This document shows positions 6,305 to 22,556 of a stretch of DNA of 32,994 bases, piece by piece. The first letter of the stretch is position 1. Every line of letters begins with the position of its first letter. The notes beneath the pieces were generated by a model, which was not told the origin of the DNA, did not search any database, and saw only the letters and a list, made by a program, of their open reading frames with translations. The position numbers were made by a program, and so were the translations under genes. The DNA comes from a bacterium (GTDB lineage Bacteria > Vulcanimicrobiota > Vulcanimicrobiia > Vulcanimicrobiales > Vulcanimicrobiaceae): positions 1 to 32,994 of the forward strand of contig JAGWSR010000124.1 of NCBI GenBank assembly GCA_028869385.1, given 5' to 3'.

Positions 6305-7645
6305 TTACGGTTCGCTCGTGAATGTCGTGCGAACGGGCGTTCCATCGCCGATACGGTCGCTCGGGCGTAGAACGACGCGCTCGCCCGGATCGAGACCTCC
6401 GAGCACCTCGCTCGCCTCGTCGCCACGATGACCTACGCGAACGATCCTGCGCCGCGCGCGGTCACCGACGATCGCGAAGGCGCACCACGACTCGCCACAC
6501 CGAAAGAGCGCTGACGTCGGCACCAACACGACCGATGGCGAAGACCACGTAACGATGCGTACGTCGAGACGATAGCCGTCACCGAGCGCACCCGGGGGAT
6601 CAAGAAGATCACCGATCACGTTCACGCGCTGCTCCTCGATGCCGAGCGCCGAGACTTTCAGGTATCCGGCGGGTTCGATCGTGCGCACGCGAGCGCGGGG
6701 ATGACGGTCGCCGTCACCGCGTACCACCTCGATCCGATCGCCTCGCTTCACCCGCACAGCATCTTGCGAGAGTACGTCGCAGACCAGTTCGAGGCGGCGC
6801 GGATCGCCGAGTTCGAGCAGCGGCGTCCCGCCCGCCACGACGTGCTCGCTACGCTCCGGAACCCTCAACACCACCCCGGTGACGGGCGCGCGAATCGCCG
6901 AGCGCGCCGCGCGATCCTCGAGTTCGCGAAGCCGAGCGCTGACGCTCGCGATCTGCGCGCGATAGGCTCGGATCAGATAATCCGGATCGCTGCGCTTAGC
7001 CTCGGTCTCCAATAGCAGCGCGTGCGCCGCGTCGACCTCGGCGCTTGCGGCTCGTCGCGTCGCCTCGGCGGCGCCGAGCGCGCGTTGCGCGGCAGCGAGA
7101 TCGAGGTGCGCCGTTTCGACCTTCGCCGGCGCGATGTAGCCAGCGCGCCCGAGCTCGCTTGCGCGCGCGTCGTCCCGACGCGCCTGCTCGTATCCGGCTC
7201 GCGCGGCGGCGACCCGCTCGGCCGCGGCAGCCGCGGCAGCGCTCGCGCTCGCAACGTTCGCGCGCGCCTGGGCAAGCGTCGCATCCTTGGGCCGCAGCGT
7301 CTCGACGCCGGCCTCCTGGGCGCGCAGCGCAGCGATCTCGGCGAGCGCCTGCGCCACCGCAGCGTTCTGCGGCAACGGATCGATCTGCGCGACCACCGTG
7401 CCGACGGGAATGGTATCGCCTTCGCGCCACGTCATGCGTTCGACGCGTCCCGCGAACGGCGCGTCGATGACGTAGCGATCGCGTACGCGAGTCGTGGCCT
7501 CAACCTCAATACTCTCATCGAGCGCGCCTCGTGTGACCGTACCCGCGATCGCTGAGACCGCGCGAGGCCGCAGAGCGAAGAGCAGCACCACAACGACGAG
7601 CGCGAGCGCCGTCGCGACGAGCAGCCACGGTCGCAGGCGCGTCAT
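6305..7645 (-). CDS. HlyD/MacA-type membrane fusion protein
   Basis: The start is the ATG at 7645, which overlaps the permease stop in an ATGA; an upstream extension of the frame is only a shadow of the permease gene. The 446 residues begin with a signal anchor (about residues 4-25, LLVATALALVVVVLLFAL). A biotinyl-lipoyl-like strand (VIDAPFAGRVERMTWREGD) and an Ala- and Arg-rich coiled-coil hairpin follow. The chain returns to the lipoyl half (IRAPVTGVVLRVPERSEHV) and ends in beta-barrel domains. It would bridge an inner-membrane ABC permease to an outer-membrane channel, as MacA does for MacB. No TolC-like gene is in the window. Gene order is ATPase, permease, adaptor. Confidence 0.9.
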   Translation of the reverse strand: MTRLRPWLLVATALALVVVVLLFALRPRAVSAIAGTVTRGALDESIEVEATTRVRDRYVIDAPFAGRVERMTWREGDTIPVGTVVAQIDPLPQNAAVAQALAEIAALRAQEAGVETLRPKDATLAQARANVASASAAAAAAAERVAAARAGYEQARRDDARASELGRAGYIAPAKVETAHLDLAAAQRALGAAEATRRAASAEVDAAHALLLETEAKRSDPDYLIRAYRAQIASVSARLRELEDRAARSAIRAPVTGVVLRVPERSEHVVAGGTPLLELGDPRRLELVCDVLSQDAVRVKRGDRIEVVRGDGDRHPRARVRTIEPAGYLKVSALGIEEQRVNVIGDLLDPPGALGDGYRLDVRIVTWSSPSVVLVPTSALFRCGESWCAFAIVGDRARRRIVRVGHRGDEASEVLGGLDPGERVVLRPSDRIGDGTPVRTTFTSEP

Positions 7646-9998
7646 TCGCCGGCCTTCAACACGGCGAGGACGTCGAGCCGTCGAAGATCGCGCGAGAGCA
7701 GCGCCGAAGAGCCGAGCGCGCTCGCGGCAACGAAGAGTGCCGCAAAGGCATATGTCGCCGTAGAAACGACGACAGGGATTCGATAGGTCTCCGTCTCGTA
7801 CGCGGGAGCGAGTACGACGCAGAGCGCGTAGCCGAGCGCGCAGCCGAGCGGGACGGCCACGAGGGCCGGAACGCCAAGTTCTCCGAAGACGATTCCGGCG
7901 ATCTCGCGTCGCGTAGCGCCGAGGATGCGCAGCGTCGAGAGATCGCGCGCACGCTCGGAGAGGGAGATCCGGCCCGCGTCGTACATCACGCCGCACGCGA
8001 TCGAGGCCGCGAAGCCGAGCAGAAACGCAATCGAGATTCCCATTGTCTCGGCGATCGTTCGCTCGAACTGCTGCATCATCGAAGCGCGGTACCCGATTCC
8101 GGCGACCGCGGGCAATGCCTTCACACGGCGATCGAAGGCGTCGATGCGTGCGGGATCCACGGCGAGGAGCGCGCCCGAGATCGTGCCGCCTTCGTCGAGC
8201 AACCGATGCAGTGCATCGAGATTCATGTACGCATTGAGTCCGAGAACGTCGTCGACGACTCCCGAAACGACGAGTTCACGCGTCCGCGGGCGTCCCTCGA
8301 GAATGCGCGCTTCGATGCGATCCCCAGGTCGCACGCCGAGAATCTCGGCGAGCTTTGCACTCAGCAAGAGACCGGCGCGCGGGATTCTCCGTACGCGAAG
8401 CGTGCGATCCACCACGTGCGCGAGCGAGCCGGAATCCGGAAACCCGAGGATCGCGACGCGACGCGAATGCGTACCGCGCGAGAGCCGCGCTCCGATCGAA
8501 CGATAGACCTCGATCTCGCGCACCCCAGGCAACGATGCGAGTTCGAAGCGCGCGCGATTTCCGAGCGGGCGTACGAAGGCCAGGTTCACGTCCTCCCGCT
8601 GGACCATGCGAAATTGTACGTCGATCATGTAGGCGACGGCATCGGCACCGAAACGGCCGACGACGATCATCGCCACGGAGAACGCGACCGCGAGCGTCGT
8701 TCCGATCGCCGCACCGGAGCGGCGTTCTAGATCGCGCGCGACCATGCGAACGACGAGTGGGAGCCGTACGATCGCAGCCACGCGATCGAGCGCTGTCGGC
8801 CGATAGGTGGGCGGCGACGGCGGCCGCATCGCCTGCGCCGGCGCGAGCGCGGCGACGCGAGCGAGCGCGAGCGCCGCTCCGGCGAGCGTGGCGAGCGAGG
8901 CGATCGCGACGGCGAACGCGATCGCGCGTGCGTCGAGCCGATATGCGAGAAACGGAAAGTGAAAGAAGTGCGCGTAGAGCGCGGTCAAGCGCCAACCCAG
9001 CCAGGCACCCGCGAGCGTCCCGAACGCCGCGCCGAGCGCAACTACGAGGAGAACGAGCTTCGCGTAGTGCGCGAGGAGTGACGCATTGGCGTAGCCGAGC
9101 GCCTTGAGCACCGCGATCTGACTTCGCTGCGTGGCTACCAGGCGCGAGACCGCGATGTCGAGCAAAAACGCCGCGATGGCGAGAAAGATCGCCGGAATGA
9201 AGATCGCCTGAACCCGGAGTTGGCCGATCTCGTCCGAGAGAAATCGGTTGGAAACCTGATCGTGGGCGGCATAGGCTCCCGACGAACCGTATGGCGCGAG
9301 CAGCCGGTCGAGCGAGGCGATGACCGCGTCGACGTTCGCGGCGCGCGTATCCACCACGACGTCGTTGAAGGCATCGGTGAGGTCGAACGCGGCACCGAGC
9401 GTCTTGCGCCCGAGCCAAAGGACGCCGAAATGGCGATTGTCCGGCCAGATGTCGGTTGCGCCGCGAATCTCGTAGACGTACTCCGGCGATAGGCCGATGC
9501 CCACGATGCGAAAGCGATGGTAGCGCCTATTGATGACCGCCGCGATCCATTCGCCCACGCGCAGGCCGTTCGCCTGCGCGAACGCCTCGCTTGCAACGGC
9601 CTCGTCGGCGGACTCGGGCCGCGGCAACCGCCCGTCGCGCAGATACAGGTCGTTGATACCGGGCGTATTGCGCGTGGGGATCGAGACGAGCCTCGCGGTC
9701 ACCGCATCGGTGCGCCCCGGAAGATCCAGAGATACGTCGGAGACGACGCGCGTTTGGACCGCACGGACGCCGGGAATCGCCGCGATTCTCGACTCCAGAC
9801 TCTGCGGAGCTCGCGAGAGCGTCGCGAAGATCGCGGCGAAGCGAAACCGCTCGTAGTATTGCTCCTGCGTGAGGCGCAACGAATCGTACACGCTCTGCAT
9901 CGCCACAAAGGCCGCGATTCCGCACGCGACGATGAGGACGATCGCTGCGAGCGAGCCACGCCAAGCGACGATGTCGCGAAGCAGCTTTCGATCGAGCA

Positions 9999-10005
<7 letters not shown>
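7642..10005 (-). CDS. ABC transporter permease, FtsX/MacB-like
   Basis: The ATG at 10005 lies 5 bp after GGAG and overlaps the ATPase gene by 7 bp, giving 787 residues. The layout is two repeats of FtsX type. There is an N-terminal transmembrane helix ([19 protein letters not shown]), a large periplasmic domain (about 60-270), and a three-helix FtsX block containing [21 protein letters not shown] second anchor (about 445-465), a second periplasmic domain and a C-terminal FtsX block with [18 protein letters not shown] follow. The doubled FtsX arrangement is usual for large permeases that act with one LolD-type ATPase. The cargo is unknown. The adaptor gene overlaps its 3' end by 4 bp. Confidence 0.92.
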
Positions 10006-10751
<746 letters not shown>

Positions 10752-11194
10752 CGGCGACGTCGTCTAAGAACACCTTGACCGTCCGCTCCGCGATGAGATG
10801 ACCGATCGTCGCGTCGAACGCCGCGCCGACGAGGCGCCCGAGCGGCGGTTCGTACGTACCGTCCAGTTCGAGGTAGCAGCAACTCGGATCGTCCTCGGCC
10901 CACAGGATCATGTGGCCCTGAAAGTCGGGCAACGGCCCGTCGTCGGAGGCACGCCAGTCGATGGCGTACACCTCGTTGAGATTCTGCTCGTCGCGGCGCC
11001 GTTCGACGTGGATCTCGACCTGATGCTCCAGATCCACGTCGAGTGGGAGCCCGAAATCTTCGAGCGAGACGCGCAGCGGCCAACGAATCGTTCCCCGTGC
11101 GTCGCGGCGGCTCTCGAAGACCGCGGGCAGAGCGGTTTCGGCGTGCGATAGGGTACAGTCGAGCGCCACGGTGGCCCGCACTCGTTCCATGCTC

Positions 11195-11202
11195 TCCTCC
11201 TT
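11195..11202 (-). promoter_or_regulatory. Strong ribosome binding site for YEPP-motif gene 1
   Basis: AAGGAGGA on the minus strand, 4 bp before the ATG at 11190. It decides that start over the upstream in-frame ATG at 11241. Confidence 0.75.
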
Positions 11203-11252
11203 CGTGCTGGTCGAGAGCGTACCGCGGCCGCTACCTCGCATGAAGAAGAGCC

Positions 11253-11339: not shown

Positions 11340-11759
11340 ATGACCGCACTCCTCGACGAGACCCGACTCTCGAAGAACCACCGCCTCGTGTACGAGATCG
11401 TTCAAGAGCAGGGCTATGGGCGTCACCTCCCGATGTCGGAGCTCTACGAACTCGCGCGCACGCGCCGCCCCGGTATCGGGTTCACCACGGTCTATCGCGC
11501 GCTCACGCGCCTGCGCGATCTCGGGATGGTCTCGGAGATCACGCTGCCCGGCGCCGACAGCGCCTACTACGAGGCGGCGGGGCCGGAGCATGCCCACTTT
11601 CGCTGCACCGAATGCGGCACGATCGACAACGTGAAGTTCTCGCTCCCGAGCGATCTCTCGACGCGCGTCGCGAGCGACCTCGGCGCCCACGTCACCGATT
11701 CGGTCGTTACCTTGCTCGGGCGCTGCCGCGCCTGCAGCACGGCGAGCGTTGCCATCTGA
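11340..11759 (+). CDS. Fur family metalloregulator
   Basis: The 139-residue protein has the Fur fold. A winged helix carries GIGFTTVYRALTRLRDLGMV (46-65). The dimerisation domain carries EHAHFRCTECGTI, with His84, His86, Cys89 and Cys92, and a second Cys pair CRAC (129, 132). The four cysteines would form the structural zinc site. The His pair and acidic residues are consistent with a regulatory metal, but Fur, PerR and Zur cannot be told apart from this. I chose the ATG at 11340; a GTG at 11253 would add an unlikely 29-residue leader that covers the inverted repeat. The next gene begins 10 bp after its stop. Confidence 0.93.
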   Translation: MTALLDETRLSKNHRLVYEIVQEQGYGRHLPMSELYELARTRRPGIGFTTVYRALTRLRDLGMVSEITLPGADSAYYEAAGPEHAHFRCTECGTIDNVKFSLPSDLSTRVASDLGAHVTDSVVTLLGRCRACSTASVAI

Positions 11760-11769
11760 AGGCGCCCGC

Positions 11770-12261
11770 ATGACCACCCTGCTCCAACGGTACTACCTGC
11801 ACTGCCCGTACGCGCGAGCGCGCACGCAGCTCGACCGCGTGCTTCGCGACCTCGCCGAGTCGGGCGAGACGCAGGTCATCCGTCTGCGCGTTCCGATCAA
11901 TCTCGAAGGATCGAAGACGACGGGGCTGCACAAAGATGTGGTGGTGCAGTACGGACAGGGTACCGATCCGCTGCACTTCGACCAGCCCTGGACGGTGCGC
12001 TGGACTCCGCACGAGGGCGGCCCGTATCCCGACTTCGACGGCACGTTGACCGTACGCGCCGATGAAGATTTCAACGCCTGCGTGCTCGAACTGCAAGGCC
12101 GTTACGAACCGCCCTTCGGCTTCGTCGGTGCCGCGTTCGACACCGTCCTCGGTTCGCGCATCGCGTCGGCGACCGCCCGCGAGTTCTTGCGCCGCATCGG
12201 ACGCGACATCGAGGCTCGTTACCATCGCGAAGAGCACGAGAAAGGTCACCGCGTCTCGTGA
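11770..12261 (+). CDS. YEPP-motif protein 2, possibly SRPBCC-like fold
   Basis: The function is not recognised. The 163-residue soluble protein starts with TTLLQRYYLHCPYARA and carries PDFDGTLTV, then LELQGRYEPPFG, then GAAFDTVLGSRIA, and a C-terminal helix ending in ARYHREEHE. It aligns along its length with the products of the genes at 10717 and 12258. It lies 10 bp after the Fur-family gene and overlaps the next gene by 4 bp (GTGA), so the three are one operon and this family is probably under the control of that regulator. Confidence 0.75.
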   Translation: MTTLLQRYYLHCPYARARTQLDRVLRDLAESGETQVIRLRVPINLEGSKTTGLHKDVVVQYGQGTDPLHFDQPWTVRWTPHEGGPYPDFDGTLTVRADEDFNACVLELQGRYEPPFGFVGAAFDTVLGSRIASATAREFLRRIGRDIEARYHREEHEKGHRVS

Positions 12262-12761
12262 GCAAGCAAAAGATCGAACTCTACGTGCCGCTGCACGTAT
12301 CCGCGGCGGCGGCACGCGACATCGCGATGCAGGTGCTCGACGCCGTCGCCAAACGACGTGCTCCCTACGAGCACGTGATGCTGACCGCGGGACTGCGGGA
12401 ACTCCACGTGCCGATGAGCGGCGTGGTGAGCGTACCGGTCAACGCGTCGGTCGATCCCCACCCGCTGCGCTGGGAGTGCGGCATCGTGCTCGAGGCCGAA
12501 AACAATCGTACGCTCTTTCCGCGCTTCGACGGCACGATCACGGTGACGCCGAACGGCACGGCCGAGGCCGAACTCTGGATGCAGGGTGCCTACGAGCCGC
12601 CCCTCGGCGCAATCGGAGCCGGAGCCGACGCCGCGCTGCTGCACGGAGCCGCGGAGGGAAGCCTACGCGCGTTCCTCACCTGGCTCGCGAGCGAGGTGCG
12701 TCGCCTGGTGGAAGAGCGCGAGCGCGAGACGATGCGCGCCGCGCGACAGACGCACTTCTAA
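12258..12761 (+). CDS. YEPP-motif protein 3, possibly SRPBCC-like fold
   Basis: The function is not recognised. The GTG at 12258 overlaps the previous stop and gives 167 residues. It keeps the family pattern PRFDGTITV, LWMQGAYEPPLG, GAGADAAL and a terminal helix (FLTWLASEVRRLVEERERE), but is the most divergent of the three: it lacks the GAAFD form of the last block. No signal peptide or membrane helix is seen. The stop overlaps the stop of the convergent kinase-like gene by 3 bp. Confidence 0.72.
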   Translation: MSKQKIELYVPLHVSAAAARDIAMQVLDAVAKRRAPYEHVMLTAGLRELHVPMSGVVSVPVNASVDPHPLRWECGIVLEAENNRTLFPRFDGTITVTPNGTAEAELWMQGAYEPPLGAIGAGADAALLHGAAEGSLRAFLTWLASEVRRLVEERERETMRAARQTHF

Positions 12762-13444
12762 TCCGCGACGAGCGGCAAGCGAATCTTCATCATCCGTTGC
12801 AGCGCTCCGACGCCGCCGCTCGATGCGTCGCGAATGGCGACCGCGAGTTGGTTGTCGCCGTGATGCACGGCGATCTCGACCGAACCGTGCGGCGGCGCAT
12901 AGCGCACCGCATCGATCACCGCTTTGCGTACCATGCGATGGACCTGGTTGGCATCGCCGCGGTGACTCCCGCCCTGCGAGGCACGATCGAAGAGCACGCG
13001 TACGCCCTTCGTGCTCGCGAGCCCGGCGATCGCCGCAATGTTTGCGTCGATGATCTCCGCGAGCGCGACCTCTTCGCCGCCGACGTCGTGGATGTCGTTG
13101 CGCGCGGGAACGCGACGCAATTCATCGAGGAGCGCGCCGACCGAGCGCAGCGATCGGAGCACGGCCTCCAACCGCTGCGGCGTTGCGTCGACGACGCGGT
13201 CGGCCATGCCCTCAAGGTTCGCTTGCGCGATCGAGAGCGCGTTGCCGATCTCGTGCCGCGTCACCGCGACCGCGCGCGAACGCGCCTGTTCGCGCTGCTC
13301 GAGCTCGCACACGAGCAGAAAGAGGCGACCCGCGACGGCGTCGTCGAGCGGCTCCAGAAGGCGCTTGGCTTCGTCGTACTCTTGCATCATCGCGAGGTCG
13401 AGCGCGTGCAGAACCGCGTCGCGGTCGCCGTTGCGCTCGCTCAC
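12758..13444 (-). CDS. Histidine-kinase-like protein with a reduced ATPase domain
   Basis: This 228-residue cytoplasmic protein has no sensor or membrane segment. A short N-terminal helical part (1-45) is followed by a HisKA-like hairpin with an H-box TRHEIGNALSIAQANLEGM (phosphoacceptor candidate His64). The last part resembles an HATPase domain: VRKAVIDAVRYAPPHGSVE stands where the N-box would be, but the key Asn is absent. AIRDASSGGVGALQ looks like the G1 and G2 boxes run together with the ATP lid missing. It may therefore act as a phosphotransferase or phosphatase rather than a kinase, like ChpT. The GTG start overlaps the stop of the OmpR-type regulator gene, its obvious partner. Confidence 0.7.
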   Translation of the reverse strand: MSERNGDRDAVLHALDLAMMQEYDEAKRLLEPLDDAVAGRLFLLVCELEQREQARSRAVAVTRHEIGNALSIAQANLEGMADRVVDATPQRLEAVLRSLRSVGALLDELRRVPARNDIHDVGGEEVALAEIIDANIAAIAGLASTKGVRVLFDRASQGGSHRGDANQVHRMVRKAVIDAVRYAPPHGSVEIAVHHGDNQLAVAIRDASSGGVGALQRMMKIRLPLVAD

Positions 13445-14157
13445 GGCTTCTTCATCTTGTAGCCCACGCCGTACACGGTGAGCACGTACTCGGGCTCCTG
13501 CGGACTCGGTTCGATCTTCTTGCGCAGGTTGTTGATGTGGCGATCGAGCGTACGCTCGAAGATCGAGCCGTCGTCGTGCAAGCGGTCGAGCAACTGCGCG
13601 CGCGTGAAGACCTGGCCCGGATGCTCTCCGAGGACGGTCAGGATGCGAAACTCCGAAGGCGTGAGGGTGACGCCCTTACCGCCGATGCGTACTTCGTGCG
13701 CGCCGAGATCGATCTCGAGTTCGCCGATGCGCAAGCGCGCCCCGGCCTCGCTCGCCCCGTTCCCGGCCGCGCCGGCGGCGCGACGCATGACGGCCCGGAC
13801 GCGCGCGACGACCTCGCGCGCCGAGAACGGCTTCGTAATGTAATCGTCGGCGCCGAGCTCGAGCCCGACGATGCGGTCGACCTCCTCGGCACGCGCCGTC
13901 AGCATGATGACCGGCACGCCGCGCTCTTGGACGGAGCGCAGAATGTCCAGGCCGCTGCCGTCGGGCAGGGTGATATCGAGGATCATCAGGTCGGGAAGTC
14001 CCGCTTCGAGCTCCGCGAGTGCCCCGGCAACCGACTCGCGCACGGCCGTTGCAAACCCCTCGCGCTCCAAGTACGCGCTCAGAACCTCGCCGATCTGCGG
14101 TTCGTCGTCCACGATCACGATGCGCTTCACCCCACGAGGCTTAGGGATGCTTCGCAC
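13441..14157 (-). CDS. OmpR/PhoB-type response regulator
   Basis: The 238-residue protein has a receiver domain (about 11-125) with the acidic pair VDDE, the phosphoacceptor Asp in MILDITLPDGSG, the Thr/Ser in IMLTARAEE and Lys in DDYITKPF. A winged-helix DNA-binding domain (about 140-235) follows, with LTPSEFRILTVLGEHPG and TLDRHINNLRKKI. All switch residues are present. The GTG at 14157 has a nearby AAGG; a GTG at 14130 is an alternative start. It is divergent from the oxidase operon, with a 90-bp gap holding an inverted repeat, so it may control the oxidase genes. Confidence 0.94.
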   Translation of the reverse strand: MRSIPKPRGVKRIVIVDDEPQIGEVLSAYLEREGFATAVRESVAGALAELEAGLPDLMILDITLPDGSGLDILRSVQERGVPVIMLTARAEEVDRIVGLELGADDYITKPFSAREVVARVRAVMRRAAGAAGNGASEAGARLRIGELEIDLGAHEVRIGGKGVTLTPSEFRILTVLGEHPGQVFTRAQLLDRLHDDGSIFERTLDRHINNLRKKIEPSPQEPEYVLTVYGVGYKMKKP

Positions 14158-14247: not shown

Positions 14248-14373
14248 GTGAGCGACCGCGATGGCGATCACGAAATACCGCTCCCGGGGACACTCACGTT
14301 CGTCCTCGTGATGGGCGCGTGCTTCGTGATCGGCTGGTTCATTCTCTATTTCACGATGCTCGGGCGGTGGTGA
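14248..14373 (+). CDS. Cytochrome c oxidase subunit IIa-like small protein
   Basis: This is a 41-residue single-helix protein, easily missed. After a short acidic leader it has IPLPGTLTFVLVMGACFVIG and a hydrophobic run to the end (FILYFTMLGRW). Size, one membrane helix and position just before subunit II match subunit IIa (CbaD) of Thermus-type ba3 oxidase. The GTG start at 14248 follows GGAGG by about 11 bp. It ends 2 bp before the ATG of subunit II. Confidence 0.78.
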   Translation: MSDRDGDHEIPLPGTLTFVLVMGACFVIGWFILYFTMLGRW

Positions 14374-14375
14374 GC

Positions 14376-14843
14376 ATGCACGTTCACCGCTACGAACGCA
14401 TTTGGATCGCCTTCGGGGTGATCATGCTCGTCGTCTTTCTCTCCGCGATCGCCTTCGCGTCGGTCGCGGACAACATCAATCCGCCCTCCGGCATGCAAAC
14501 GATCGACCCGACCAAGGTCGCGCAGACGCCCCCCTTCGACCACCCGGGTCTGCGCAAGATCGGCGATGGACGCTACGAGGCCTACTACGTCGCCCAAGTC
14601 TTTCAATTCACCCCGAGTGACCTCAAGATTCCGGTCAACAGCACGGTCTCGTTCTATGTGACGAGTCCCGACGTCGTGCACGGCTTCTTCATTCCGAACA
14701 CCGACGTCAACATGATGGTGATTCCCGGTTGGGTCAACACCTCGACGCACACGTTCACCAAGCGAGGAACCTACTTGCTGATCTGTCACGAATACTGCGG
14801 CATCGGACATCAGAACATGTTCGGAAAGATCGAGGTGCAATGA
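14376..14843 (+). CDS. Cytochrome c oxidase subunit II, ba3 type (CuA)
   Basis: The 155-residue protein has one N-terminal membrane helix (about 8-28) and a periplasmic cupredoxin domain. The CuA site is complete: His102 (SPDVVHGFF), Cys137, Cys141, His145 and Met148 in CHEYCGIGHQNM. It is much shorter than the aa3-type subunit II and has only one helix, as in the B-family (ba3) enzymes. It accepts electrons from cytochrome c. I start at the ATG at 14376; GTG codons two and three codons upstream overlap the preceding gene. Its stop overlaps the start of subunit I. Confidence 0.93.
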   Translation: MHVHRYERIWIAFGVIMLVVFLSAIAFASVADNINPPSGMQTIDPTKVAQTPPFDHPGLRKIGDGRYEAYYVAQVFQFTPSDLKIPVNSTVSFYVTSPDVVHGFFIPNTDVNMMVIPGWVNTSTHTFTKRGTYLLICHEYCGIGHQNMFGKIEVQ

Positions 14844-16486
14844 CGATGTCACTCGCTGCAGAACGCTCGCTTCGGGCCGAGAATCGTCTCGTCATCGCGC
14901 ACGTGTACGCCGGGACCGTGGCGTTCGTGCTCGGCGCGCTCTTTGGACTGCTCCAAGCCTTCTCGCGCGCCGATGCGATATCGGCGCCGCCGTGGTTCGA
15001 CTACTATCGCATCCTCACCACGCACGGCGTGCTGATGGCGCTGGTCTTCACGACCTTCTTCATCACCGGACTCTCCACGTTCGTGACCTATCGCTCGATC
15101 CCGCGCGAGCGTTCGCTCGCGCTCGGATGGATCGGATGGGTCGTTATGCTCGTCGGCACGTTGATGGCGGCATACGAGATCCTCGCCGGAAACGCCACGG
15201 TGCTCTACACGTTCTACGCACCGCTCAAAGCCAGTCCGTGGTTCTACATCGGCGCCGCGCTGCTCGTCGTCGGCACGTGGGTCGTGGCGACGGATATCTT
15301 CGCGAACGTCATTTGGTGGCGGCGCAATCACCGCGGTGAGAAGCTTCCGCTGCCGGCCTTCTGCGCGGCGACCACGTTTTTGATGTGGTGGATCGCGACG
15401 CTCGGCGTCGCGACCGAGGTGCTCGTCTTTCTCGTCCCGTGGTCGTTCGGCTGGACGAGCGGCATCAACGTGATGCTCTCGCGCCTGCTCTTCTGGTACT
15501 TCGGGCATCCGCTCGTGTACTTCTGGATCATGGGTGCGTACATCGCCTGGTACAACATCGTACCGACGTACTACAAGGGCAAGCTCTTCTCCGACTCGCT
15601 CACGCGTCTGACGTTCATCATGCTGCTCCTGCTCTCGACGCCGGTCGGCATCCACCATCAGTTCATGGAGCCCGGCATCGCGGATCGCTGGAAGATGCTG
15701 CACACCGTCCTCACGTACGGCGTCGCGGTTCCGTCGTTCCTCACGGCGTTCGCGATCTTCGCGTCGTTCGAACTGAAGGCGCGCACGCTCGGCAAGTTCG
15801 GCTTCTGGGCCACGGCACGCTCGTTGCCGTGGGACAACCCCGCCTTCGCGGCGACCGGATACGCGATGCTGCTCTTCATCCTCGGCGGCTTCGGCGGCCT
15901 GGTGAACGCGTCGTACAACATGGACATGCTCGTGCACAACACGATCTGGATCGTCGGTCACTTCCACGTCACCGTGGGCGGACCGGCGGCGCTCACGTTC
16001 CTCGGAACCGCGTACTGGATGATCCCCAAACTCACCGGTCGCGAGCTGTGGTCGAAGAGCTGGGCGCTCTGGCAGGCGCGCTTGTGGTTCGTCGGCATGC
16101 TCGTGATGTCGATGGCGATGCATCTCGTCGGACTGCTCGGCGAACCGCGTCGTACGGCGAGCGTGGATTACCTCGGAACGGGCATCGCGCAGACGTGGGC
16201 TCCGTACAACCTGATGGCCGCGGCGGGCGGCACGATTCTCTTCGTGAGCGCGATGATGTTCGCGGTGGTCGCGATCGGCACGCTCGTCGCCAATCGCAAA
16301 ACGCAGCCGATGGACGCCGAGTTCTCCGAGCCCTCGGAAATCTCGGGGCCGACGCCGCGCTCGCTCGACACCATCTGGCGTTGGGGCGTCGTCGCCCTCG
16401 TGCTCGCGCTGCTCGCATACGCCGGTCCGCTGGCGGAACTCATCCATAATCCGGGGTATCTCGCCCCGGGCATGAGGACGTGGTGA
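14840..16486 (+). CDS. Cytochrome c oxidase subunit I, ba3 type
   Basis: This 548-residue integral membrane protein has about 13 helices. The heme-copper ligands are all present. His62 (ILTTHGVLM) and His376 bind the low-spin heme, and His374 (VGHFHVTVG) the high-spin heme. His223, His272 and His273 bind CuB, and Tyr227 in GHPLVYF is the cross-linked tyrosine. This makes it a functional terminal oxidase that reduces oxygen to water and pumps protons. Its B-family (ba3) type usually has high oxygen affinity. The ATG at 14840 overlaps the previous stop by 4 bp. The Usp gene starts 1 bp after its stop. No heme-synthesis or assembly genes are in the window. Confidence 0.95.
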   Translation: MTMSLAAERSLRAENRLVIAHVYAGTVAFVLGALFGLLQAFSRADAISAPPWFDYYRILTTHGVLMALVFTTFFITGLSTFVTYRSIPRERSLALGWIGWVVMLVGTLMAAYEILAGNATVLYTFYAPLKASPWFYIGAALLVVGTWVVATDIFANVIWWRRNHRGEKLPLPAFCAATTFLMWWIATLGVATEVLVFLVPWSFGWTSGINVMLSRLLFWYFGHPLVYFWIMGAYIAWYNIVPTYYKGKLFSDSLTRLTFIMLLLLSTPVGIHHQFMEPGIADRWKMLHTVLTYGVAVPSFLTAFAIFASFELKARTLGKFGFWATARSLPWDNPAFAATGYAMLLFILGGFGGLVNASYNMDMLVHNTIWIVGHFHVTVGGPAALTFLGTAYWMIPKLTGRELWSKSWALWQARLWFVGMLVMSMAMHLVGLLGEPRRTASVDYLGTGIAQTWAPYNLMAAAGGTILFVSAMMFAVVAIGTLVANRKTQPMDAEFSEPSEISGPTPRSLDTIWRWGVVALVLALLAYAGPLAELIHNPGYLAPGMRTW

Positions 16487-16925: not shown

Positions 16926-19900
16926 CTACTTCACCACGAGCGTCGCGGCCGCGCTGCGGCCGAAGGCTTCGGGCGCGTCGAGCAGATAGGCTCGCGCGCC
17001 CGGCCAGCGATAGGTTCCCGGCGTGACCGAACGCACGAGATAGTGCATTTCGTAGATGCCCGGGGTCAAGAGTGCCGCGAACGCCGTCACGCGATCGCGA
17101 TAGATCGTGCGATCCTCGAGTTCCCACGCGTCGCTCTGCGGCACCAGCGACTGCGGTGCCGTGACGAAGTCGCTATCCACCGCCTCGAGACCCGCGGGCA
17201 GCGGATCCTCGATCTCGAGCCGGCTCACCACGTGATCGACGACGATGCGCACGCCGACGTCGTACACGCGCCCCACACCGAGCGCGACATCGCCCGCGAG
17301 CGGGGCAAGATCCATCGTCGCGAGCGGATCGCTCGCGCCCACGTCGCGAACGCTGCGCGTGACCCGTAGCGCCGCGAGCGCGCCCGGCGCATTCGCGGAG
17401 ACCGGATACGTGTAGAGCACGAGCGCATGCACGGTACCGCCGCCGCTCGCGCTCATATGCAGCGCGCCGCCGTGCACGTCGGCGCTTGCGAACGTGACGC
17501 TCTGCTCCGACGCCCGCGCTCCAAAGTGAGCCGATGCGAGCGTACGGCCGTCGGCGCTCACGATTGCCGTCGTGGGCACGATGCGTTCGGTCGCCGTATA
17601 GGCGACGAGCGCGCGCATCGCCGCCGCGGCCGACGGCAGCGTGGGCCAGCCGCAGCGACACGGCTGCGCGACGAGCGCGCGCACCGCACCCGCGACGAGA
17701 TCGGGCGGGGCATGCCGCGCGAGCAAGAGCTGCAGCATCTGCGCCTGCGCGGTCACGACATCGTCGCGCCACGCCCAGGGATCGTTTTGATTCGCGACCG
17801 CGTAGCGGCCGCTCGCATAGAGCGTCTGCTGCAACGTCGCGGCAAGCGCGCTCCCTCGCGCTTCGTACCCGGGCGTCGCGAGCAGCAGTCGCGCGAGCCG
17901 GAGCCGCGACGCCGCATCGAACGCATCGGCCTGCGCGAGCACCTCGGGAACGAACGCCGTCGTACGCGCTCCGCTCGCCGCGAGCGCTTCGAGCATCGCG
18001 AGGCGCACCTGCGCCTTGCAGAGCGCTCGCGCGCACCAGTGGTAACGGCCGGGATTGGCCAGCGTCTGCGTGGCGTACGCCGACGCGCGCGCGAGCATCG
18101 TCGAGGAGACCTCGACGCCGTGCGCGCGTGCGAAGCCGAGTGCGTCGAGCGCGTAGCCGCTCGCGAATGGATCGCTCGCGCGGGCATTCGGCACGAATCC
18201 GAAGCCGCCGTCGCTGCGCTGCAGCGCCGCGAGCGCGGTGAGCGCCGCGGCGACCTGCGTCTTCGCATCGGCGGCGCTGCCGACGGCCTCGCCGTAGCGC
18301 GGCGCGAGTGCGAGCAACGCGCTCGCGACGGTCAGACGCGCGGCGCTCTCGCTCGCGTACGGCAGCGCGTCGTCGCGCAGCATGCGCTCCACCGGAACGG
18401 CGAACTGCGGCACGACCGAGTTGGCAAGGGTGATGCGCACGGTACCCGGACGATCGAAGGCGACCGGAAGATCCGTCGCGCGTGCGGTATCAGCGCTCGC
18501 GAAGACCGACTCGGTCGTGGCGCGATCGCGAATCTCGAACGGCACGCGAAACGCGTCGTTCGCGCCGCCGAGCGCGGCCCGCACTCCGAACCATGCCGGA
18601 GCCGGCGTTCCCGCCACCACGCTCGCGCGCTGCGCCGAGATACCGGTCGGCGCCTGCACGCGCATCTGCGCGTGCTGCGCGTCGCCCGACGCGAATCGCA
18701 GCGCCCCCTCGAGTTGCATCGCGAGATCGAGCGTGCCCGCGGAACCGGTTTGATTGAAGATCGAGGCACCCGCGTCGAAGGTATCTCCCGGGCGCGCGAA
18801 CTGCGGCAGCAGCGGGTTGGCCATGAGCGGCAGCGACGTGACGAAGGTGGCGTCGCTCGTCCCGAAGCGGCGATCGTCGCTCGCGATTGCAACCGCCATC
18901 ACGCGCCAGGTCGTAAGGTCGTCGGGCAGATCGAAGGTTACGCTCGCTTCACCGCGCGCGTCGCTGATCGCGCTGCCGTAATAGGCGAGCGGAAGGAAGT
19001 GCGTGCGCACGCGCGTGCTCGCGGCACCGGCGAGGAAGCCGCCGCCGTAGCCGAAGCCCTTCTCGACCGGAGCCTGCTGCGTCTGCAGCGTCACGTTCTC
19101 GCGATTGTCGGCAAAGCGCGTCGAGATCGGCTGATCGGCGAAGACCGTCGTCACCAGATCGGGCAGGCGGTATCCGCTCAACTGCAGGATCGCATCGTTG
19201 ACCGCCATCGCGATGATCTTGCCGCGCACCGGATGCCCTTGCGCATCGCGCAGCGTGAAGGTCACGCTCTGTCGCGCTCCGGGCGCGAGGTTCGCGTGCG
19301 CCGGAGCGACGTGCAACGAGAGCTCGCGATCCTTGAGGTCGAGATTGAAGCGCGCGAGACCGACGCGGGCGATACTGTCGAGGCTCCCCGGACGCACGTG
19401 CGCGAGCGGTTCGCCGCGCCGTACCACGACCGCCTCGAGCGCGGCGTTCGGGAACATCGCCGGCGTGATGCGGAACGAGACGTGCGGAACGCCCGAGACG
19501 TCGTGCAGGACGAAGCGCGAGATCACGTCGTGGCGCACGACCGAGACGTACACGTCGGCGTGCGCGTACGGCGACCCGATCACCGCGGTCGCCTCGTCGC
19601 CGACGCGATAGAGTTTCTTGTTGAGCGTCACCGGAACGCTCGCGGTATCTTGCGTGCCGAGATCGGCCTCGCCGGCGCCGAACGCGAACACCTGCAGGTC
19701 GGTCGCGCTCGCGGCGCTCGACGCGCCGGCGAAGTTCGCGCGCACGCGGTACGAGCCCGCGTCGGTCGGGGTGAGCGTCGCCGTGACCGGCGTCTTCGCC
19801 GAGGTCACGTCGGCACGCGCAACGGTGTCGAAGCGCACCGATTGCTGGGCTGCCTCGCCGCCATCGAGCGCTTGCGACGATGACACGTAGGTCATCTTCT

Positions 19901-22556
19901 GCAGTTCGAGATGCACCGCGCGACCGGGGAGCGGCGTGCCGTCGGCGTCGGTGACGATCACGCGCACCGGCATCGCGCTTCCCGCCGCGCCGACCGTATC
20001 GGATGCGAGTCCGATCACGCCGTCGGCGGGCAGCGCGAGCAGCGTCGTCGCATTCGAGACCGAGAGGTTCGAAACGTCGGTCGCCGTGGCTTCGACCGTA
20101 TAGGTGAGCGGCGCGGGCAGATCGCTGCCGATCGGCACGTCGAAACGCACGTTGCCGCTCGCGTCGAAGCGCATATCGCGCTGCAGCACGTCGGTCGTGA
20201 GCGACGGCTGCTGCTGCGGCCACAACCACGCGCGGCCGAACGCGAACGCGTCCCAGCCCTTCGGCGACACGCTCGCGTAATCGCGCGTGATCGTAACGTG
20301 GGCGTTGCCGCCTTCGAGCGGTGCGCCGAACAGATACGCGGCCGTGGCACGCGCGCCGACGCGTGCGCCCGGCCGCGCGCTCGCGGCATCGAGCGCGAGA
20401 TCGAGTTTGAAGTTCGGCGGCTTGAATTCGGCCACGCGGAAGCTGCCGACGATGGTCGCGCCGCTCGGCCCGCGTGCATCGAGCGTGTAGTACCCGAGCG
20501 CCTGATCCTTGGCGAAGGTGTAGGGATACGCGAAGGTGCCGTAGGCGTCGGTCGTCACGTTGCCGAGCGCGCGCTCCGCGCCGCTCGGATCCACGAGCGA
20601 GACGCGATAGCTGGCGTCGCGATCCGCCACGACCTCGCCGTTACGAACGATATAGGCGATGCCGGTGAATACGCCGCGCTCGCCCGGCTGATAGAGACTC
20701 CGATCGGAGAAGATCGTGCCCGCCGCGCGCGGCGCGCCGCCCGCCCAGCCGAAGGGAACGTCGTAGCGATAGATGCCGCTGTAATCTTCGACGCGCACCG
20801 TGGCGACGTCGCTTCCCGAGCGCACGATGACGCCGAGCGCGGGCATCGCATCGGGCGAAGCGCCCACGTAGCAGCTTTCGAGATCGATCCCCTGAAGCTG
20901 GAACGCGCCGCCGGCATCGGTGCTGCCGTTCGCGCAGTTCTGTACGCCTCCGGCGTCGGGGAGGCGATAGATGCCGACCGCGGCGTTCGCGACCGGCGCG
21001 CCGTCGCTCATGCGTTGCACGAGCACCTCGCCGTGCATCGGAAAGAATTGCGCGAACACGCCGAGATCGGTAAGGGTGACGCTGCCGAGCATCGTGTTGT
21101 CGCTGCTCGGCGTTCCGTCGGCCGCGAGCGGCGCGGCGACGCCGTACGCGAGCGTACCGAACGGAGCGCCGAGCCGCTGTTGCACCCGCATGCGCTCGAC
21201 GCTCTGCACGTTCGTCTTTGCGTTCGCGAGCGGCACGAGCGGCCAGGTTGCGGCGGGCGACGGCAGCACCGACGCCGCGTCGCTCCCGCCGAGCACCTGC
21301 TCCGGCGTCAGCGATGCGAAGGCGCTGCGGAAACGATTGCCCGGCAGGTTCGTGGCATAGAAGTTCACCGCGACGCCCGCGTCAGCGGCGATGAGGGTGG
21401 AACCTTGAGGAATCCACGCACCCGGCGCAAAGTCGCCCGTGTGCACCTGCACGGTTACCGGGCTCGCGAGCGATTGCCCGAAGACGTCGCGCACGCCCGT
21501 GCCGATGGTGACCGTATAGTCGCGATCCGGCGCGAGCGCGTAGGGATCGATCGCGATCTGCGCGTCGTTCGCGGCGATCTTCGGGGCGGGCGAGGGCTGC
21601 GGCGAGATCGTGACGTTGCCAGCGAGCGAATCGGGCGCGATCGGATTGTCGAAGGCGATAACGGGATCGCCCTGCGCGAAGCGCGCTCCCTCGTCGCCGC
21701 TCGGCGACGCGGTCGGGACCACGGCGAGACGATCGTACGTACGCACCGATCCGCTGAAGGCGCGCGCGCTCGCGACGTTGCCCACCGCGGGTTCGACGCC
21801 CGGCGCGATCGTGAGGTGGTAGAGCGTACCCTGCGCGAGCGTGGTGCGCGGGGTGAGCACGTACACCCAGGAGCGCTGCGAGGGATCGAAGGCGGTCGTC
21901 GCGTCGGGCGCGGTGCCGGGCGGCGGCGTCGGCGTCGGTTGGAGCGCCGCGTCGAGCGCGACGGGCGCTCCGCCCGCATCGAGCGTCGCGTGCGCGGCGA
22001 GCGAGCCCGCGTCAACGGCCGCGTTCGCGGTGACGAGCAGGTGGGGGCGCAGCGCGACCGGCGGCGGCGTCGGGTCATCCGGCGACGGGCTCGCATCGGG
22101 CAGATCGCTGAAGGCGAGCGGGGCCGTTTCGAACGTCCAGGCGAGATCCGCGCCGAGCGCGTCGCCGTCGAGATCGCGCAGCCCGCGCGTGAGCGTTACG
22201 CGGACGCGCGCGCCGACCGGGAGGGCCCGCTCGGCGACGAAGCCGATCATCTTCGGCGTCAGGAGCACGAAGTGCCCGGGGAGCGCCGGATCGATGCGCA
22301 GGTGATCGAGCACGGCGCGCGGCCCGTTGCCTTCGAGTGAGGAGACCGGCGCGACCGGCTTGGCAAAGATGACCCTGATCTGCGCGAGCGACTGCGCGCG
22401 CGCGGTCGGCGAGATCGAGGCGATCCAGGGAGGCAGCGTGGGGCGCGCGAGCGCCGACACGGGGGCGAGCTTGACGTTCGTCGAGCTCGCGTGCGAACAG
22501 GCGGCGAGAGCACACGCCGCGGCGGTCGCGAGCAGCGGAACGAACCGAGCGCGCAT
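16926..22556 (-). CDS. Alpha-2-macroglobulin family lipoprotein, no thioester
   Basis: This 1876-residue protein starts with a lipoprotein signal (LLATAAACALAAC, lipobox LAAC with Cys20), so it should be anchored in a membrane facing the periplasm. The N-terminal third contains Ig-like domains, with a proline-rich linker (PSPDDPTPPP). A MG3-like segment has RSLYQPGERGVFTGIAYIVR. The macroglobulin core has EASVTFDLPDDLTTWRVMAV near residue 1210, and a terpenoid-cyclase-like helical domain follows. Where bacterial thioester proteins have YGCxEQ, this one reads LPYASES near residue 1397. It therefore cannot trap proteases covalently and resembles the thioester-less YfaS type. It lies divergently 5 bp from pbpC, the usual partner of this family. 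Confidence 0.93.
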   Translation of the reverse strand: MRARFVPLLATAAACALAACSHASSTNVKLAPVSALARPTLPPWIASISPTARAQSLAQIRVIFAKPVAPVSSLEGNGPRAVLDHLRIDPALPGHFVLLTPKMIGFVAERALPVGARVRVTLTRGLRDLDGDALGADLAWTFETAPLAFSDLPDASPSPDDPTPPPVALRPHLLVTANAAVDAGSLAAHATLDAGGAPVALDAALQPTPTPPPGTAPDATTAFDPSQRSWVYVLTPRTTLAQGTLYHLTIAPGVEPAVGNVASARAFSGSVRTYDRLAVVPTASPSGDEGARFAQGDPVIAFDNPIAPDSLAGNVTISPQPSPAPKIAANDAQIAIDPYALAPDRDYTVTIGTGVRDVFGQSLASPVTVQVHTGDFAPGAWIPQGSTLIAADAGVAVNFYATNLPGNRFRSAFASLTPEQVLGGSDAASVLPSPAATWPLVPLANAKTNVQSVERMRVQQRLGAPFGTLAYGVAAPLAADGTPSSDNTMLGSVTLTDLGVFAQFFPMHGEVLVQRMSDGAPVANAAVGIYRLPDAGGVQNCANGSTDAGGAFQLQGIDLESCYVGASPDAMPALGVIVRSGSDVATVRVEDYSGIYRYDVPFGWAGGAPRAAGTIFSDRSLYQPGERGVFTGIAYIVRNGEVVADRDASYRVSLVDPSGAERALGNVTTDAYGTFAYPYTFAKDQALGYYTLDARGPSGATIVGSFRVAEFKPPNFKLDLALDAASARPGARVGARATAAYLFGAPLEGGNAHVTITRDYASVSPKGWDAFAFGRAWLWPQQQPSLTTDVLQRDMRFDASGNVRFDVPIGSDLPAPLTYTVEATATDVSNLSVSNATTLLALPADGVIGLASDTVGAAGSAMPVRVIVTDADGTPLPGRAVHLELQKMTYVSSSQALDGGEAAQQSVRFDTVARADVTSAKTPVTATLTPTDAGSYRVRANFAGASSAASATDLQVFAFGAGEADLGTQDTASVPVTLNKKLYRVGDEATAVIGSPYAHADVYVSVVRHDVISRFVLHDVSGVPHVSFRITPAMFPNAALEAVVVRRGEPLAHVRPGSLDSIARVGLARFNLDLKDRELSLHVAPAHANLAPGARQSVTFTLRDAQGHPVRGKIIAMAVNDAILQLSGYRLPDLVTTVFADQPISTRFADNRENVTLQTQQAPVEKGFGYGGGFLAGAASTRVRTHFLPLAYYGSAISDARGEASVTFDLPDDLTTWRVMAVAIASDDRRFGTSDATFVTSLPLMANPLLPQFARPGDTFDAGASIFNQTGSAGTLDLAMQLEGALRFASGDAQHAQMRVQAPTGISAQRASVVAGTPAPAWFGVRAALGGANDAFRVPFEIRDRATTESVFASADTARATDLPVAFDRPGTVRITLANSVVPQFAVPVERMLRDDALPYASESAARLTVASALLALAPRYGEAVGSAADAKTQVAAALTALAALQRSDGGFGFVPNARASDPFASGYALDALGFARAHGVEVSSTMLARASAYATQTLANPGRYHWCARALCKAQVRLAMLEALAASGARTTAFVPEVLAQADAFDAASRLRLARLLLATPGYEARGSALAATLQQTLYASGRYAVANQNDPWAWRDDVVTAQAQMLQLLLARHAPPDLVAGAVRALVAQPCRCGWPTLPSAAAAMRALVAYTATERIVPTTAIVSADGRTLASAHFGARASEQSVTFASADVHGGALHMSASGGGTVHALVLYTYPVSANAPGALAALRVTRSVRDVGASDPLATMDLAPLAGDVALGVGRVYDVGVRIVVDHVVSRLEIEDPLPAGLEAVDSDFVTAPQSLVPQSDAWELEDRTIYRDRVTAFAALLTPGIYEMHYLVRSVTPGTYRWPGARAYLLDAPEAFGRSAAATLVVK

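Follow-up and report, generated by a model that had tools for sequence, protein, structure and literature searches.

The window analysed here is a contig of 32,994 nucleotides (nt) from a bacterium of the Vulcanimicrobiaceae (JAGWSR010000124.1). At positions 12758-13444 of its reverse strand it carries a gene for a 228-residue protein that resembles a histidine kinase with a broken ATPase half. We consider it likely that this protein is a histidine phosphotransferase, derived from a former sensor-less cytosolic HisKA kinase. It would work in a relay in which a PAS-domain histidine kinase passes phosphate to a receiver (REC), the receiver to the DHp domain of the 228-residue protein, and this protein to the response regulator (RR) of the overlapping gene. 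For the Candidatus Eremiobacterota, to which the host belongs, we see an even chance that the kinase of this one RR/oxidase locus was turned many times independently into the phosphotransferase of a four-step relay, by stages that would still be visible: intact kinase, lid lost, half-domain lost, bare hairpin, and fusion to a new kinase.

A kinase-like protein without its ATP-binding motifs

The reading frame starts with a GTG that overlaps the stop of the RR gene, the overlap being 4 nt. An overlap with the RR gene was noted in the first-pass annotation of the window, which was made from the sequence alone. That annotation had also seen an H-box with its His and an N-box without its Asn, and alignment with intact orthologues agrees on both counts: His64 stands in RHEIGN, invariant in our alignment A4 and as expected of a HisKA kinase, and the Asn pair of the N-box is replaced by K174 and D178. 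The further description of the G1 and G2 boxes as fused, with the lid deleted, is fair, and the lid is gone, but G2 is deleted rather than fused. From D206, the G1 Asp, to the C-terminus there are 23 residues, versus 67 in the orthologue L004, so that about 44 residues comprising lid and G2 are missing. D206 itself is kept, with DxGxG changed to DASSG, and the F-box and the helix after G2 are absent as well. The combination of N-box, G1, G2 and lid that characterizes a HisKA autokinase is not found in this protein.

In Pfam, the protein scores 22.6 bits to HisKA (cut-off 26.9) and 19.7 bits to HATPase_c (cut-off 26.4), the latter match covering only positions 1-48 of the 111 in the profile. 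Its best NCBIfam matches are of the BaeS/PhoR type (46.6 and 40.5 bits), far under the curated cut-offs. In line with the earlier description, no sensor domain was found, and inspection by eye, with no transmembrane predictor run, reveals no membrane segment. ChpT, Spo0B and HPt were considered as possible families and rejected, the protein having no match at E<=1 to PF10090, to PF14689/PF14682 or to PF01627, respectively.

The broken form is present in all three genomes of the genus (G000-G002), the two others carrying it at 77-78% identity. This rules out an assembly or frame error as its cause; the short form is real, because the other genomes share it and because it is under purifying selection. 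Three segments were compared across G000-G002, and the ratio of nonsynonymous to synonymous substitution rates (dN/dS) is lowest in the DHp (about 0.05-0.09), intermediate in the N-terminal segment (about 0.10-0.13, from the two pairs whose dS could be measured) and highest in the ATPase remnant (0.25-0.40). The DHp, and with it the H-E-x-x-N motif, is guarded by selection, while the remnant is relaxed yet not free.

An AlphaFold2 model based on 42 family rows (pLDDT 88.9, pTM 0.53) predicts a DHp followed by a Bergerat fold lacking the lid, which is the architecture of ChpT-type proteins. The C-terminal part of the model matches the catalytic and ATP-binding (CA) domains of kinases with Z about 11 and a root-mean-square deviation (rmsd) of 2.4-2.9 over about 100 residues (3a0x, for example: Z 11.8, rmsd 2.9 over 102 residues). 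Hence, the fold appears to be kept without the lid, and is still predicted to be HATPase-like, contrary to the unlike fold that would have spoken against the first-pass reading. Neither ChpT nor Spo0B is among the structure matches listed, which excludes nothing.

Intact orthologues and repeated loss of the ATPase half

Matches to the 228-residue protein at E<=0.001 occur in 53 of 60 relatives; many are ordinary kinases, with E from 1e-3 to 1e-9. The close matches adjoin the same kind of RR, and the majority in the family are complete soluble kinases. These carry the motifs NAVRYTPPGG, DSGPGI and GSGLGL, and one intact orthologue scores 108 bits to BaeS in NCBIfam. Given that intact soluble kinase orthologues stand by the same RR in other genera, the 228-residue protein is, judging from these sequences, a former kinase, and the kinase origin proposed in the first-pass annotation is upheld.

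A DHp profile gave matches in 66 of the 99 genomes of the family. We classified by script 94 DHp loci, comprising those of the family and others from its sister family and class; families f2 and f3 (23 genomes outside f1) were searched with the window protein and the PAS kinase only, rather than for stubs with the DHp profile. Forty loci are intact, 47 lack the ATPase half and seven are fused. The 47 consist of 10 degenerate, 2 truncated and 35 DHp-only proteins, the last class being defined by at most 20 residues after the DHp. Bare DHp hairpins are found in reading frames as short as 56-78 residues. One stub of 78 residues had no match in Pfam or NCBIfam within the limits applied, and such proteins are therefore easily missed.

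Of the 47 non-fused ATPase-less proteins, 44 retain the motif H-[E/D/Q]-x-x-N, as do 40/40 intact and 7/7 fused ones, and the His is retained in all 41 ATPase-less proteins whose genome has the PAS kinase described below. The three proteins without the motif are the third-copy stubs of G037-G039. These genomes of the sister family (loci L034, L035 and L036) each hold three tandem RR-DHp pairs: the kinase is intact in the first kind of pair, has a broken ATPase half in another, and is reduced to a DHp-only stub in the remaining one.

In a carefully built RR tree (55 rows, without the HEIRN-type group and without the G107 row, whose branch is long), the label intact or ATPase-less changes 6 times, and at least 4 changes are forced by supported branches. 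On an RpoB tree of 48 genomes it changes 10-11 times, a number in which any passage of the locus from one species to another would be counted as well.

A pair of Cys residues (C-x5-14-C) just before the FxGD/RGD strand of the CA domain is present in 38 of the 40 intact kinases (L048, L051 and L053 among them), is kept in 2 of the 10 degenerate proteins, and is missing from the window protein. In these otherwise sensor-less kinases encoded beside an oxidase, the pair could be a redox or metal switch.

A soluble PAS kinase with output-less receivers accompanies the loss

The true kinase had been expected to lie elsewhere, and a candidate is indeed found on another contig. In G020, the gene of a soluble PAS-HisKA-HATPase kinase adjoins the stub. 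PAS kinases were classed by their score to this G020 kinase: type 1 above 300 bits and type 2 at about 228-282 bits, hits of 191 bits or less not being counted. The operon in the window's own genome (G000, contig C11) encodes a PAS kinase (398 residues) and two receiver proteins, REC-REC (262 residues) and REC (125 residues), in which Pfam finds no output domain. Behind type-1 kinases, the REC match begins 12-29 bp after the end of the kinase match in 31/31 loci read, and the phosphorylation site of this first REC, namely the acid pair (D/D or E/D), D, T and K, is complete in all 31. A second, more distant type of PAS kinase accompanies the HEIRN-type stubs, with a REC match following within 1 kb in 15 of 16 cases. 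Thus, a separate kinase and an output-less receiver, the further parts that a relay calls for, are both associated with the DHp protein.

By NCBIfam, the PAS kinase core is nearest to the BarA, TorS and HrmK models, all below the model cut-offs. BarA, TorS and HrmK kinases carry receivers, a point taken in part from the model descriptions. The DHp of the PAS kinase belongs to another subfamily than that of the 228-residue protein, the best NCBIfam matches being BarA/TorS versus BaeS.

A PAS kinase is present with 41 of the 47 ATPase-less loci versus 7 of the 40 intact ones (Fisher p=4.6e-11, uncorrected for relatedness). In the family's RHEIGN-type group, 29/29 ATPase-less genomes have it versus 1/18 intact. 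That one exception, G094, has the intact kinase together with the PAS-kinase operon, whereas its sister G093, of the same genus, has a broken ATPase half and the same operon. Because the RR gene tree gave too few supported contrasts, a species tree was built from RpoB. Its 48 genomes exclude those of the RHEIGN and HEIRN types in which no RpoB match could be used, together with several near-copies from genus g25. The tree is based on RpoB alone, since rpoC, which would have made it longer, was looked for next to rpoB and not found. Supported branches of this tree yield 9 independent pairs, of which 7 agree with the association, 0 oppose it and 2 show no difference (p=0.0156). G113, whose copies are of the intact, stub and fused kinds, does not enter this count. 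For the RHEIGN group alone, 5 pairs agree, 0 oppose and 1 shows no difference (p=0.0625).

The association extends to gene position. A PAS kinase (score above 200) lies within 1.5 kb of 19/47 ATPase-less loci and within 8 kb of 25/47. For intact loci the count within 8 kb is 0/40, many of these having been read to 1.5 kb, with the PAS kinases of their genomes on other contigs or, in G021, 73 kb off.

At the seven fused loci (L045 and L131-L136; six long frames and one short), a PAS kinase-REC protein has a DHp-only module as its N-terminal part. The six long frames extend about 650 residues past the DHp; the seventh (G021:C79:4491) reaches only a PAS segment, with kinase homology further downstream. 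In the fused protein of G031, the one such chain scanned with Pfam, PAS, HisKA, HATPase and REC follow the DHp. The fusion joins both partners in one chain.

The sole Hpt match in G000 (contig C113) falls in a 763-residue frame that also has a HATPase match and that we read as CheA-like, and no ChpT-type locus exceeds the cut-off in this genome. The output-less receivers would therefore be left without a known histidine partner except the DHp protein.

The proposed relay and its alternatives

The simplest scheme that accommodates these observations is PAS kinase to REC to H64 to D61. In it, the soluble PAS-HisKA-HATPase kinase would autophosphorylate and hand its phosphate to one of the output-less receivers whose genes directly follow its own (the REC-REC and REC proteins); the receiver would dock on the DHp bundle of the 228-residue protein and phosphorylate His64; and His64~P would in turn phosphorylate D61 of the OmpR-type RR. 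The RR probably controls genes of the neighbourhood, such as the oxidase, although this is a guess from position. The phosphorylation residues of the RR are intact in 46/46 RRs of ATPase-less loci. From the sequences we infer each of the phosphotransfer steps, the identity of the donor REC, dimerization and the target genes.

In addition, the DHp probably removes phosphate from RR~P, either by transfer in the opposite direction or with the help of N68. In HisKA kinases, PMC3510030 assigns the acid after the His to the kinase reaction only, and the Thr or Asn at H+4 to the phosphatase reaction only. Since the family keeps both the acid and the H+4 Asn, phosphatase activity alongside transfer is likely, and it may even be the main role.

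The first-pass annotation had proposed either a phosphotransferase, as with ChpT, or a phosphatase for the RR. This reading finds support, although Pfam does not place the protein in the ChpT family, and on the sequence evidence a phosphotransferase is favoured; the two activities can coexist. A protein dedicated to dephosphorylation is an unlikely alternative. Here, the two activities of a formerly bifunctional kinase would have come to reside in separate proteins: the RR would be phosphorylated directly by the PAS kinase or by some other donor, and the 228-residue protein would only strip the phosphate through N68. Against this stands the retention of the His with its adjacent acid in nearly all ATPase-less members, though PMC3510030 found that phosphatase activity does not need the acid. 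The output-less receivers, always present in the associated kinase operon, would also be superfluous in such a model.

It is improbable that the protein works with a complete kinase in trans, forming a heterodimer with it or being phosphorylated by it, and so serves as a phosphodonor without any REC step. DHp domains in general dimerize, and the ATPase-less copies of G037-G039 do stand in tandem with an intact RR-kinase pair. In G000-G002, however, no intact paralogue of the subfamily was found, the single DHp-profile match at E<=1e-5 in each genome being the protein itself, and the PAS kinase, with its DHp of the BarA/TorS rather than the BaeS kind, is of another subfamily. Least probable of all is a decaying remnant, or a non-enzymatic scaffold that binds the RR and travels with its gene without phosphotransfer: the faster evolution of the ATPase remnant than of the DHp and the persistence of a His-less stub in G037-G039 would fit it, but the strong purifying selection on the DHp, the His retained in 44/47 ATPase-less members and the intact phosphorylation sites of the RR speak against it.

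Several observations weigh against the four-step relay itself. In the window's own genus, the PAS-kinase operon lies on another contig than the RR/DHp genes, and the link to the kinase therefore rests on relatives. The retained N68 fits a phosphatase equally well. The RR gene tree supports only 4 independent pairs, of which 2 agree and 0 oppose, and this is not significant. Seven of the 40 intact loci are in genomes that have a PAS kinase, which is of type 1 in four cases (G094, G043, G047 and G051) and of type 2 in the other three; evidently, the presence of the kinase by itself does not go with ATPase loss. Finally, at our thresholds neither type of PAS kinase is present in G037-G039, yet these genomes hold ATPase-less copies, and their DHp-only third copy is without the acceptor His.

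Comparison with known phosphotransferases

Kinase-derived phosphotransferases are already known as a kind of protein, with ChpT, Spo0B and PhyT as examples, and the present family lies outside the Pfam models of these three. ChpT of Caulobacter likewise has a DHp hairpin, a lid-less Bergerat-like domain and a phospho-accepting His, and is described in PMC3433190 as devoid of autokinase activity. Unlike ChpT, the 228-residue protein has an H-box of the HisKA/BaeS kind; its donor looks like free REC proteins, whereas that of ChpT is the REC of the hybrid CckA; and a single family of its relatives includes everything from intact kinases to DHp-only proteins.

The nearest system in logic would be that of PhyT in the Sphingomonas general stress response, which runs from Pak to SdrG to PhyT to PhyR and in which, according to the account in PMC5898713, a protein taken for a phosphatase turned out to be a phosphotransferase. 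PhyT/PhyP with SdrG, as outlined there, share with the proposed relay a degenerate kinase at the RR locus and the order of kinase, single-domain RR, phosphotransferase and RR. PhyT is described as membrane-anchored with HRxxN, in contrast to the 228-residue protein, which is soluble by inspection, has HExxN (HEIGN) and is paired with an OmpR-type RR.

Spo0B of Bacillus, with Spo0F and Spo0A, offers a free single-domain receiver, a dimeric DHp-type phosphotransferase and an RR (PMC3433190 and PMC6136694). The 228-residue protein differs from it in its lack of a Spo0B Pfam match, models that PMC6136694 presents as poor markers, and in a recent descent from an intact kinase that can be read from the orthologues. 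The BaeS/PhoR-type HisKA kinases, finally, provide the best NCBIfam matches of both the protein and an intact orthologue, but the protein has no sensor or membrane part and has lost the ATP-binding motifs.

Among the papers available to the search, none was found with a graded and repeated conversion of this sort, down to a bare DHp hairpin and on to fusion with a new kinase, and the papers listed on two-component systems of Eremiobacterota had nothing on the RR/DHp family. If the reading is true, few if any known free phosphotransferases would be smaller than the bare hairpins, and the series would show stepwise how a two-component system becomes a phosphorelay. Relatives alive today present one orthologous locus in its initial, intermediate and final states, G094 and G093 of a single genus among them. 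The locus also yields direct tests, and it names a candidate upstream kinase.

Neighbourhood of the locus

The features are collected in Table 1. Genes for the two oxidase subunits and for uncharacterized paralogues of about 170 residues adjoin the RR/DHp genes in many relatives.

Table 1. Coordinates of the DHp gene, its parts, its neighbours and the candidate kinase (window positions unless a contig is given)
Feature	Coordinates	Strand	Basis
Kinase-derived DHp protein, 228 residues: helical N-terminal segment, DHp hairpin (His64), lid-less ATPase-domain remnant	12758..13444	-	Pfam, alignment, model
DHp segment, residues 54-110, HisKA match	13115..13285	-	Pfam, dN/dS
His64 codon, presumed phospho-acceptor, motif H64-E-I-G-N68	13253..13255	-	alignment; position computed from start codon
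Asn68 codon, H+4 residue; need in phosphatase reaction described for other HisKA proteins (PMC3510030)	13241..13243	-	alignment
Catalytic and ATP-binding domain remnant, residues 121-228: N-box K174/D178, lid and G2 deleted	12761..13084	-	Pfam, alignment, model
OmpR-type RR, presumed phosphate recipient; acid pair D17/D18, D61, T87, K109 intact	13441..14157	-	Pfam, NCBIfam, residue check
Cytochrome c oxidase subunit II, divergent neighbour and, from its position only, a candidate target	14319..14843	+	Pfam, relatives' neighbourhoods
Cytochrome oxidase subunit I, longest open reading frame; true start probably further in	14729..16486	+	Pfam, relatives' neighbourhoods
Soluble PAS-HisKA-HATPase kinase, own genome	G000:C11:17523-18599	-	

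The window has three of the paralogues of about 170 residues, at 10717-11241(-), 11749-12261(+) and 12258-12761(+). None of them has a credible Pfam match, and many Eremiobacterota carry such paralogues next to their RR/DHp and oxidase genes. In plasmids, a short DNA search with the RR gave no more than weak pieces, in 3 records. Further along, a very long open reading frame at 16926-22556(-) encodes 1876 residues with a lipoprotein-like signal at the start, presumably a bacterial alpha-2-macroglobulin. On the other side, 7642-10751(-) holds an ABC transporter ATPase, recognized by Pfam, followed by a large permease, which we take to be FtsX/MacB-like.
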